39,799 nt of DNA from a bacterium. Its GTDB lineage: Bacteria; Actinomycetota; UBA4738; HRBIN12. The notes beneath the pieces were generated by a model, which did no database searches, was not told the DNA's origin, and saw only the letters and a program-made list of their open reading frames with translations. The position numbers and the translations under genes were made by a program. This document shows positions 3,639-6,415 of this stretch, piece by piece. Numbering within the stretch: position 1 is the first letter of the stretch; every line of letters begins with the position of its first letter. The stretch is taken from the NCBI GenBank assembly GCA_023251895.1, contig JAHEXX010000005.1, positions 1 to 39,799 of the forward strand, given 5' to 3'.

Positions 3639-3917
3639 TCACCGAGTGACCCGGAACTCCCTCTCGCCGAGAGGTGTCTCCTCGCTGACTTCCACGGACT
3701 CGACGTCCGACCATGGAGTCCCCGCCCGACACCACGCCACCATGGCCTCCACCGGCGCATCGTCCCCTTCGAAGGCCGCCTCCACACGGCCGTCAGCGAG
3801 ATTGCGGACCCACCCTGCCACCCCGAGTTCCCGGGCCCGCTGCGTGCAGTAGGCACGGTAGAAGACGCCCTGCACCTGCCCCGAGACCAACACCCGAACC
3901 CGCCTCACGATGCTCAT
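3639..3917 (-). CDS. acyP: Acylphosphatase
   Basis: A 92-residue protein matching the usual length and fold of acylphosphatases, small enzymes that hydrolyse the carboxyl-phosphate bond of acyl phosphates such as acetyl phosphate or 1,3-bisphosphoglycerate. The substrate-binding loop reads GQVQGVFYR, with the catalytic Arg. The catalytic Asn is in GWVRN, and the later LADGRVEAAFEG stretch is also typical. It sits 56 bases upstream of smc on the same strand and is divergent from the nicotinamidase gene, with only 31 bases between the two start codons. An acylphosphatase next to smc is a recurrent arrangement in actinobacterial genomes. Its cellular substrate cannot be deduced. Confidence 0.95.
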   Translation of the reverse strand: MSIVRRVRVLVSGQVQGVFYRAYCTQRARELGVAGWVRNLADGRVEAAFEGDDAPVEAMVAWCRAGTPWSDVESVEVSEETPLGEREFRVTR

Positions 3918-3933
3918 CGTAGGAGCACGGAGC

Positions 3934-3939
3934 TACCCT
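3934..3939 (+). promoter_or_regulatory. -10 box for the nicotinamidase gene, leaderless type
   Basis: TACCCT followed by 9 bases and the ATG at 3949. No ribosome binding site lies between them. The spacing equals that seen for smc, rpmB, recG, icd and the RTX gene, and this decides the choice of start codon for the gene. Confidence 0.5.
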
Positions 3940-3948
3940 GATCCCGAG

Positions 3949-4536
3949 ATGGTGGACTACGACCCGAAGACCGCGCTCGTTGTCGTCGACGTGCAGAACG
4001 ACTTCGCCGACCCGGCCGGGAGCCTGTACGTGAGGGGCGGCGAGGAGATCGTCCCGATCGTCAACGGGGAGATCGAGCGGGCTCTCGCCGCCGACGCCGT
4101 CGTCGTCTACACACAGGACTGGCACCCCGAGGTAACCCCTCACTTCCGCAAGGACGGCGGCATCTGGCCGGTCCATTGCGTGCAGGAGACCTGGGGGGCG
4201 CGGTTCCACCCCGACCTCAACGTCGAAGGACCCCCCATCCACAAGGGGTCCGGCGGCGAGGACGGGTACTCCGGGTTCTCCATGCGCGACCCCAGGACCG
4301 GGGATCGGACCCCGACGTCGCTCCAGGAGGTACTGACTACCCGAGGGATCGGCAAGGTGGTCGTGGCCGGGCTGGCAACCGACTACTGCGTGGTGGAAAC
4401 AGTCGTCGATGCCAGGGCGCTCGGGTACGACACGGCCGTTCTGTCGGAGGCCATCCGGGCGGTAGAACTGCAGCCTGGTGACGGCGATCGCGCCATCGCG
4501 CGCATGCGCGAGGCGGGCGCAATCGTCGAGCGATGA
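3949..4536 (+). CDS. pncA: Nicotinamidase (pyrazinamidase-like, isochorismatase fold)
   Basis: A 195-residue cysteine hydrolase that converts nicotinamide to nicotinate for NAD salvage. The catalytic triad is complete: Asp14 in VVVDVQNDF, Lys99 in HKG, and Cys147 in GLATDYCV. The metal ligands Asp57, His59 and His65 are present in the DWHP and HF segments. WPVHC, FHPDL and YSGF are hallmarks of PncA rather than of isochorismatase. An earlier in-frame ATG at 3910 exists but would overlap the divergent acyP start. The ATG at 3949 is preferred because the protein then begins one short strand before the catalytic Asp and lies 9 bases after a TACCCT box. It is the only plus-strand gene within the smc-rnc block. 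Confidence 0.93.
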   Translation: MVDYDPKTALVVVDVQNDFADPAGSLYVRGGEEIVPIVNGEIERALAADAVVVYTQDWHPEVTPHFRKDGGIWPVHCVQETWGARFHPDLNVEGPPIHKGSGGEDGYSGFSMRDPRTGDRTPTSLQEVLTTRGIGKVVVAGLATDYCVVETVVDARALGYDTAVLSEAIRAVELQPGDGDRAIARMREAGAIVER

Positions 4537-4656: not shown

Positions 4657-5499
4657 TCAGGACTGGCACTGGGGGCAGAGGTAAGCGCTCCTGCCGGAGA
4701 GCTTGACCATCACGATGGGGCTCCGGCACCGGCGGCACGGTTGGCCGGTCCGGCCGTAGACCTTCAGCTCGTTCTGATACTCGCCTGGCTTGCCGAACAG
4801 GTCGACGTAGGCCTCGTCATCGAGCGTGGTTCCCCGGAACCGGATGGCGTCCTGCAGGGTCTCCTGGATGGCCCGGTACAGCCTGCGGACCTCCTGCGAC
4901 GAGAGGGAGTCCGACATCCGGTCGTACCTGAGCCCTGCGTGGAACAGCACCTCGTCCGAGTAGATGTTGCCGAGGCCCGAGATGAACTTCTGGTCCATGA
5001 GGAGCGGCTTCAGCTTGGTGGCGTGCTCGGCCAGCGTGTTGCCGAACGCCTGCCACGTGAACACGTGGTCCAGGGGGTCGATCGCGAGGTGCTGGAGCTC
5101 CTTGACCTTGCCCAGCTCGTCGGAGGCCGTGACGAACATCTCGCCGAACGTCCGGGGGTCGACGAACCGGAGGTCCCCACCCTGGTTGAAGGTCAACACC
5201 ACTTGAGTGTGGGCCGGGAGCGCCGTCCGCTTGTTCCCCCGGAGGAACTGCCCGCTCATGCCGAAGTGCACGACCAGCACGTCGCCGGAATCCAGGGAGA
5301 GGAGGACGTACTTGCCGCGGCGGTCGGTCTTCGAGATCTTGTGGCCCGCCAGGCGCGAGGTGAAGTCCTTGCGCTTGTCGTGGCGGCGGATGGTCCGCAT
5401 GGCGTTCTTGGATGGCCTGACTTCGGCCGTAGCGATCTTGCGCCCGACGACGTCCCTGTCAAGGTCGCGACGCATCACCTCGACCTCGGGAAGCTCCAC
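4657..5499 (-). CDS. mutM: Formamidopyrimidine-DNA glycosylase (Fpg/MutM family) without the N-terminal proline
   Basis: A 280-residue member of the Fpg/Nei family that removes oxidised bases such as 8-oxoguanine. Recognisable parts are the ELPEVEV start, Lys63 in RRGKY, the helix-two-turn-helix signature with GLGNIYSDE, and a C-terminal zinc finger (PCRRC...LCPQC) with the DNA-contacting Arg in GRSAY. The start is odd. It is a GTG directly abutting the rnc stop codon (TAG then GTG), so no upstream in-frame extension is possible. The protein therefore begins Met-Glu-Leu-Pro, whereas classical MutM begins Met-Pro-Glu-Leu-Pro and uses that proline as the catalytic amine. Family membership is certain; activity and substrate are open. 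It is probably translationally coupled to rnc. Confidence 0.93.
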   Translation of the reverse strand: MELPEVEVMRRDLDRDVVGRKIATAEVRPSKNAMRTIRRHDKRKDFTSRLAGHKISKTDRRGKYVLLSLDSGDVLVVHFGMSGQFLRGNKRTALPAHTQVVLTFNQGGDLRFVDPRTFGEMFVTASDELGKVKELQHLAIDPLDHVFTWQAFGNTLAEHATKLKPLLMDQKFISGLGNIYSDEVLFHAGLRYDRMSDSLSSQEVRRLYRAIQETLQDAIRFRGTTLDDEAYVDLFGKPGEYQNELKVYGRTGQPCRRCRSPIVMVKLSGRSAYLCPQCQS

Positions 5500-6234
5500 C
5501 TAGGCTCCCCTCGCTACCGTCTCCGACGACAGCTTGTGGTAGGCCTCTCGGGCGGCCTGCTGCTCGGCCTCCTTCTTGGACCTGCCCACACCACGACCGA
5601 GCTCCCGCCCGCCCAGGAACACCGTCGCCGTGAACTCCTTCTGGTGGTCTGGGCCGCGTTCCTGGATGCGGTACTCGGGGAGGGCCCGAAGGTCCTGAGA
5701 GGCGAGCTCCTGGAGGATCGTCTTGTAGTCGCGCTCCCCCTCCCCCCGGGCGTACGCGGAGATGCGGGGCCAGAACAGCCGCTCGATCAGGGCACGGGCC
5801 GCGTCCAGTCCCCTGTCCAGATACACGGCGCCCAGCACGGCCTCGAGCCCGTCGGCCAGGATGCTGGCCTTCTCGCGTCCCCCGCTCGACTCTTCGCCCT
5901 TGCCCAACCGCACGAAGTCCCCCAACTTCAGCTCCCGGGCCACTTCGGCGAGCGAAGTCATGTTCACGATGGCCGCCCGGAGCTTGGCCAGCTCACCTTC
6001 GGCGAGATCCGGGAACTGCGTGAAGGCCAGGTCGGTCACGATCAGCCCGAGCACGGCATCTCCCAGGAACTCCAGACGCTCGTTGTTGACTGGCAGGCCC
6101 TGCTCGAACGCGTAGGAGCGGTGAGTGAGAGCGGCTTCCCGCAGCGCGGGATCCCCGAACCGAACGCCGAGCGAGGCGTCGAGCGACGCGGGCGTCGTGG
6201 CGCCCTCCGCGCCCGCGGCCGTTCCCTCGGTCAC
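5500..6234 (-). CDS. rnc: Ribonuclease III
   Basis: A 244-residue double-strand-specific endoribonuclease that processes rRNA precursors and structured mRNAs. The N-terminal catalytic domain has the signature NERLEFLGDAVLGL with the metal-binding acidic residues, and a second acidic cluster at LADGLEAVLGAVYLD. The C-terminal dsRNA-binding domain includes KKEAEQQAAREAYHKL. The start is taken as the GTG at 6232-6234, 4 bases after the rpmF stop. An open frame continues further upstream, but it only reads through rpmF in another frame and matches nothing in the family. The order rpmF-rnc-mutM-smc-ftsY is characteristic of Actinomycetota. The stop codon directly touches the mutM start. Confidence 0.97.
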   Translation of the reverse strand: MTEGTAAGAEGATTPASLDASLGVRFGDPALREAALTHRSYAFEQGLPVNNERLEFLGDAVLGLIVTDLAFTQFPDLAEGELAKLRAAIVNMTSLAEVARELKLGDFVRLGKGEESSGGREKASILADGLEAVLGAVYLDRGLDAARALIERLFWPRISAYARGEGERDYKTILQELASQDLRALPEYRIQERGPDHQKEFTATVFLGGRELGRGVGRSKKEAEQQAAREAYHKLSSETVARGA

Positions 6235-6238
6235 GCCG

Positions 6239-6415
6239 TCACTCGACCTCGACGGCCTGCCGGCCCGCGTAGTACCCGCAGTTCCCGCACACCCGATGGG
6301 GCAGTTTGGGCTGGTGGCACTGGGGGCATTCCGCGTAAGTGGGCGGCGTGGCCTTCCAGTTAGCCTTGCGCTTCGCGCCTCTGGCCTTGGTCTGTCTGCG
6401 CTTGGGAACGGCCAT
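6239..6415 (-). CDS. rpmF: 50S ribosomal protein L32 (zinc-ribbon form)
   Basis: A 58-residue ribosomal protein beginning MAVPKRRQTKARG, the invariant L32 start. Two CxxC pairs (CPQC and CGNC) make this the zinc-binding form. The start has a strong AGGAGG ribosome binding site directly after the yceD stop codon, 17 bases upstream. The pairing of yceD with rpmF is conserved widely in bacteria. The product is part of the large ribosomal subunit near the peptidyl transferase side. Confidence 0.98.
   Translation of the reverse strand: MAVPKRRQTKARGAKRKANWKATPPTYAECPQCHQPKLPHRVCGNCGYYAGRQAVEVE

Follow-up and report, generated by a model that had tools for sequence, protein, structure and literature searches.

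The mutM gene of the window (by which is meant the whole stretch of DNA that was analyzed, 39,799 nucleotides) encodes a genuine MutM/Fpg ortholog from which the N-terminal proline is missing, and this absence runs through the order to which the window belongs. Probably, the deletion of one codon placed the retained Met1 in the register of Pro1, and the primary amine of this methionine is the Schiff-base nucleophile; for the order as a whole, we lean towards the view that an unprocessed initiator methionine, free of methionine excision, is the covalent catalytic residue of the main 8-oxoguanine repair enzyme. In classical Fpg/MutM the amine of a proline, exposed by the removal of methionine, attacks the damaged base, and this proline is held to be the defining catalytic residue; the canonical protein loses Met1 and matures to P1-E2-L3-P4-E5, in which the catalytic glutamate is residue 2.

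The gene lies on the minus strand (4657..5499; 280 amino acids plus stop) and starts with a GTG (5497..5499) that encodes Met1 and occupies the position of the proline in mature Fpg, giving the N-terminus MELPEVE. Read along this strand, the TAG of rnc, the RNase III gene (5502-5500; the coding region as used here is 5500..6240, minus strand, with an approximate upstream boundary), is followed at once by the mutM GTG (5499-5497) and then by GAG CTT CCC GAG GTC GAG, that is, ELPEVE (5496-5479), a motif which is invariant across all the rows of the alignment. A Shine-Dalgarno-like AGGGGAG (5505..5511, minus strand) stands 5 nt upstream of the GTG, within the 3′ end of rnc, the 20 nt upstream of the start being CGGTAGCGAGGGGAGCCTAG. 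An earlier, sequence-only reading had remarked on this absence of Pro2; neither the window gene nor any of the 26 distinct genes of the order has this proline. On the opposite strand (3910-4536, plus), between mutM and the acylphosphatase/smc genes, there is a nicotinamidase/isochorismatase-like gene whose called reading frame shares 8 bases with the beginning of the acylphosphatase gene, so that it may really start further inside.

The identity of the protein is given by its matches to the NCBIfam Fpg equivalogs TIGR00577 (280.5 bits, cut-off 203.3) and NF002211 (290.2 bits, cut-off 212), and by its domains PF01149, H2TH, and zf-FPG_IleRS, the last with its four-cysteine zinc finger present. 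Both equivalog matches begin at profile position 3, which is position 2 of the window protein, and therefore the residue that has been lost is the proline of M-P-E; in the same register, Glu2 aligns with the catalytic glutamate of mature Fpg, which is E3 in the Geobacillus MutM reading frame. The other elements that the sequence-only reading had listed are retained in the alignment, all on the minus strand: the codon of the catalytic lysine, Lys63 (5311..5313), aligned with K60 of Geobacillus MutM; the GLGN motif with Asn178 (4966..4977), placed by the active-site alignment; and the zinc finger C-X2-C ... Arg270 ... C-X2-C-Q with its arginine (4663..4737), placed by domain match and alignment. 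An AlphaFold2 model of the protein, made from a 75-row alignment, reached a pLDDT of 95.0 (96 over the first ten residues) and a pTM of 0.90, and its best PDB matches are MutM-DNA complexes, with 1r2y at the top (E 4e-33, TM 0.89/0.91); as modeled, the window protein has the MutM fold.

A degenerate pattern scan for the Pro-less start covered 397 genomes of the window's phylum, 27 in its order and 370 others, and recovered such a start in 26 of the 27 and in 3 of the 370. Two of these three matches outside the order (L089, L090) proved to be unrelated proteins, and the third (L091) is a degenerate homolog. In a search with PF01149, the best Fpg match of every genome in the window's family and order, G017 excepted, begins at profile position 3, while in the other families of the phylum it begins mostly at position 1 or 2; read as DNA, the former have ATG or GTG followed directly by ELPEVE, whereas the latter have ATG, GTG, or TTG, then CCN, and then ELPEVE. 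Two Fpg/Nei genes were read in G017, a genome that is 83% complete: one is Nei-type, and the other is a Pro-bearing paralog that belongs to a different type. Named GTDB contigs provided 15 loci at 70–82% identity without the proline, all of them from MAGs (Centralia_MAG_23, AC_69, AC_66, UBA5176, and others), and 41 loci of no more than 65% identity in which the proline is present.

As regards the start itself, 20 of the 26 distinct Pro-less genes have GTG before Glu2 and the other 6 have ATG; a stop codon directly precedes the start in 6 of the 26, and in 25 no other in-frame ATG, GTG, or TTG is found back to the upstream stop, a single ortholog (L021) having in-frame GTG codons upstream. The DNA upstream of the start diverges among the orthologs. 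In contrast, CCN directly follows the start codon in 49 of the 49 distinct Pro-type orthologs from other lineages, and the other Fpg/Nei paralogs in the genomes of the order begin with GTG or ATG and then CCN, so that the absence of proline is specific to the mutM ortholog. The Pro-less genes form one clade (support 98/99 for the 26 order members, and an SH-aLRT of 100 when the trait residue is excluded), and rnc precedes mutM in 26/26 Pro-less loci and in most of the Pro-type loci examined. A single deletion of one codon in the stem of the order accounts for this distribution. Thus the close relatives also lack the proline, the ELPEVE starts without it group together as had been proposed for checking, and the suggestion that a whole lineage carries its own subfamily is borne out. 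No natural Pro-less bacterial Fpg was found in the literature searched, a body whose subscription papers were mostly out of reach.

The conservation of the active site was counted over the same 26 Pro-less and 49 Pro-type orthologs. Glu2, Glu5, Lys63, His78, Met81, Arg116, Asn178, Arg270, and the four zinc cysteines are unchanged in 26/26 Pro-less genes, and the void-filling Phe118 is phenylalanine in 24 and leucine in 2; the equivalents of Lys63 and of the asparagine of GLGN are also lysine and asparagine, respectively, in all 49 Pro-type genes. The dN/dS ratio is 0.03–0.06 in the six closest Pro-less pairs, with similar values in close Pro-type pairs, and Pro-less mutM is under strong purifying selection. 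Some changes are fixed or nearly fixed in the order, namely Phe79 (leucine in most others), Phe85, Ser174, Val184, Ala230, and Glu244, and none of them stands out as a gained catalytic residue.

A MutM without these constraints can be seen in another family of the phylum, f12, where the degenerate homolog mentioned above is conserved in 33 of 35 genomes and where, in one of them (G126), the gene follows the rnc match at a distance of 146 nt, which is the usual mutM slot. The 12 copies read (L119-L130) have GTG, a leucine codon, and then glutamate (GTG-CTN-GAR), that is, a change of proline to leucine, and L091 (1501-2340) no longer has the residues equivalent to Lys63, His78, Met81, Arg116, Phe118, Asn178, and Arg270, with serine in place of the lysine and proline in place of the asparagine. 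Judging by these residues, it is likely that the f12 protein is a pseudoenzyme, an apparently non-catalytic MutM homolog. A tree with the f12 and order losses of proline in one clade is not rejected (p-AU 0.61); f12 sits on a long branch, and what happened there is a substitution (Met-Leu-Glu) and not a deletion, so the two losses are treated as separate. At the level of sequence, the f12 protein shows how a MutM looks once released from catalysis, and the window protein does not resemble it; this lineage-wide pseudo-MutM is thus a natural control for the Pro-less enzyme.

The course of events that we propose would have been the following: (i) the proline codon after the mutM start would have been deleted in the stem of the order; (ii) with glutamate now the second residue, methionine aminopeptidase would leave the start methionine in place; (iii) after deformylation, Met1 would be the mature N-terminus, M1-E2-L3-P4-E5; (iv) its free primary α-amine would be located where the Pro1 amine is, with Glu2 in register; (v) this amine would attack C1′ of 8-oxoguanine and Fapy nucleotides to form a Schiff base; (vi) and finally, the strand would be cut by β/δ elimination, with Glu2, Lys63, Asn178, and the zinc-finger Arg270 in their customary supporting roles. 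Methionine aminopeptidase removes methionine only before non-bulky uncharged residues (PMC3154147), and therefore it should stay before glutamate, in agreement with what the sequence-only reading had expected; the retention of the methionine and catalysis through it are what we infer.

Several known cases indicate that the chemistry is within reach of a primary N-terminal amine: the P2G mutant of hNEIL1 retains some activity and has been observed in covalent linkage with C1′ (PMC10164570), for E. coli Fpg P2G and P2T an activity on Fapy-dG of 10% of the wild-type value is reported (PMC10164570), and NEIL3 naturally uses a valine once Met1 has been removed (PMC11323726). However, such an amine is not automatically good enough, as these NEIL1 and Fpg mutants are much weakened, and mycobacterial Nei2 P2A loses its AP lyase while keeping its 5-hydroxyuracil glycosylase (PMC11323726). 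NEIL3 with its methionine left on is poorly active (PMC6523847); this is not a close parallel, since there the methionine is an extra residue and not a replacement. Against catalysis by Met1 it also counts that the long side chain of methionine has to fit the pocket. The sequence-only reading had offered a choice between another nucleophile and a damage-binding protein; the loss of the proline on which that choice was founded stands, but what now appears likelier is the same kind of nucleophile, an N-terminal α-amine that Met1 provides with the register unchanged.

An alternative, which we consider unlikely, is that the protein still removes bases but is not an N-terminal Schiff-base lyase, with water or Lys63 making the attack and Glu2 acting as the acid, so that the enzyme would be monofunctional or Lys-dependent. 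Nei2 P2A, a glycosylase that has lost its lyase, speaks for this, as does the invariance of Lys63 and Glu2; however, both the N-terminus and Glu2 have stayed exactly in register, a constraint that an enzyme relying on water or on the lysine could do without, and the changes specific to the order include no conspicuous gain of a catalytic residue.

That the protein has become a non-catalytic damage-binding or regulatory factor seems to us more doubtful still. The textbook nucleophile is indeed absent, and the f12 protein, conserved in spite of having lost its catalytic residues, indicates that such a fate occurs; but a binder would not need Glu2, Lys63, Asn178, and Arg270, all at 100% in the 26 genes, and it is this strict conservation of the catalytic set, together with the contrast with f12, that disfavors the idea. 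In addition, in G021 and G024 (89% complete) this protein is the sole Fpg-type besides a weak Nei-type, with no OGG1-core match there.

The repair background of the order bears on the same question. Of the 27 genomes, 22 have MutY-like matches that score 142 bits or more, and none of these matches reaches the cut-off of the MutY equivalog. The possibility that the window's genome hides a Pro-type mutM at another locus was discarded: its other two Fpg/Nei proteins have the proline, belong to other subfamilies, and are below the Fpg equivalog cut-off. One of them, the Pro-bearing Fpg-like paralog C108, represents a type that 8 of the 27 genomes carry. A second Fpg-like paralog (L002, 728-1519, minus strand; L105-L111), present in 8 of 27 genomes of the order, has Pro2 and NMR(K/R)LGG replacing DPRTFG, and it is likewise below the Fpg cut-off. 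No OGG_N domain was found in 22 genomes of the order. Many f1 genomes, as well as G023 and G025, have an OGG1-like HhH protein, which in family f1 scores 43–66 bits against TIGR00588 when the HhH core is covered by the match; it was not found in G019, G020, and G021, and is also present in genomes of other families (G032, G042, G050). In two of the loci (L131, 5-1114, plus strand; L132, 491-1414, minus strand) it matches TIGR00588 and human OGG1 weakly; its motif LPGVGPYAAAH has the OGG1 catalytic lysine replaced and an aspartate kept, and from its sequence it could possibly be a monofunctional 8-oxoguanine or alkyl-base glycosylase. As a replacement for MutM, an OGG1-type enzyme was rejected, because this protein is without OGG_N and is patchy and present outside the order too, and thus does not track the loss of the proline. 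Such backups exist in some genomes and not in all, so that the argument for an active Pro-less MutM is weakened by them, not removed.

It is very improbable that an unusual peptidase removes Met1 and that the amine of the new N-terminal glutamate is used: a type I methionine aminopeptidase is encoded (above cut-off in 23 of the 27 genomes) and the sequence is compatible, but its specificity, given above, speaks against it, and the register would be shifted by one, placing leucine where the catalytic glutamate should be, and yet glutamate is invariant at position 2. An artefact, whether a sequencing error at 5495-5503, a wrongly assigned start, or an upstream start that would yield Pro2, can practically be discarded, although the Pro-less gene was first seen in one MAG contig and L021 has its upstream GTG codons, as 26 of 27 genomes from separate assemblies share the structure, 6 distinct genes have a stop directly upstream and 25 of 26 no other start, and the Pro-type relatives all have CCN immediately after theirs.

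Catalysis by Met1 can be set beside the known members of the family. With bacterial Fpg/MutM (TIGR00577, NF002211; Geobacillus 1r2y/1l1t, T. thermophilus 1ee8, E. coli 1k82) the Pro-less protein has in common the fold, the length, the H2TH and zinc-finger domains, the glutamate, lysine, asparagine, arginine, and void-filling residues, and also the rnc-mutM order of the phylum; it differs at the N-terminus, where they have proline and it has its start methionine, predicted to be retained. The vertebrate NEIL3 uses a primary amine, that of valine, and not the secondary amine of proline, which is the type of amine proposed here, but in NEIL3 Met1 is removed to expose the valine, whereas here Met1 itself would be the nucleophile. 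A NEIL3-type valine after a removable methionine is absent, since glutamate follows methionine in 26/26 Pro-less genes, and the alignment register fits a non-proline amine in the place of the proline provided that Met1 is retained. The f12 protein is alike in phylum, in locus (after rnc in G126), and in the absence of proline, and differs in that its proline became leucine and its other catalytic residues were lost. Finally, Fpg2 of M. tuberculosis (Rv0944) is a truncation that lacks the N-terminal part of a second Fpg homolog (PMC2734929); it too is actinobacterial and without the catalytic N-terminus, but the Pro-less MutM represents the loss of one residue in the mutM ortholog of a whole order.

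In summary, the old and lineage-wide loss of the proline, with the rest of the enzyme intact, constitutes a mutagenesis experiment carried out by evolution, and it suggests that, for the N-terminal amine, location counts for more than which amino acid provides it. It also makes a clear-cut question testable: whether the primary amine of a methionine can do all the chemistry of Fpg at useful rates, and whether the changes specific to the order, such as Phe79, Phe85, Ser174, Val184, and Glu244, are those that make the chemistry of Met1 work.
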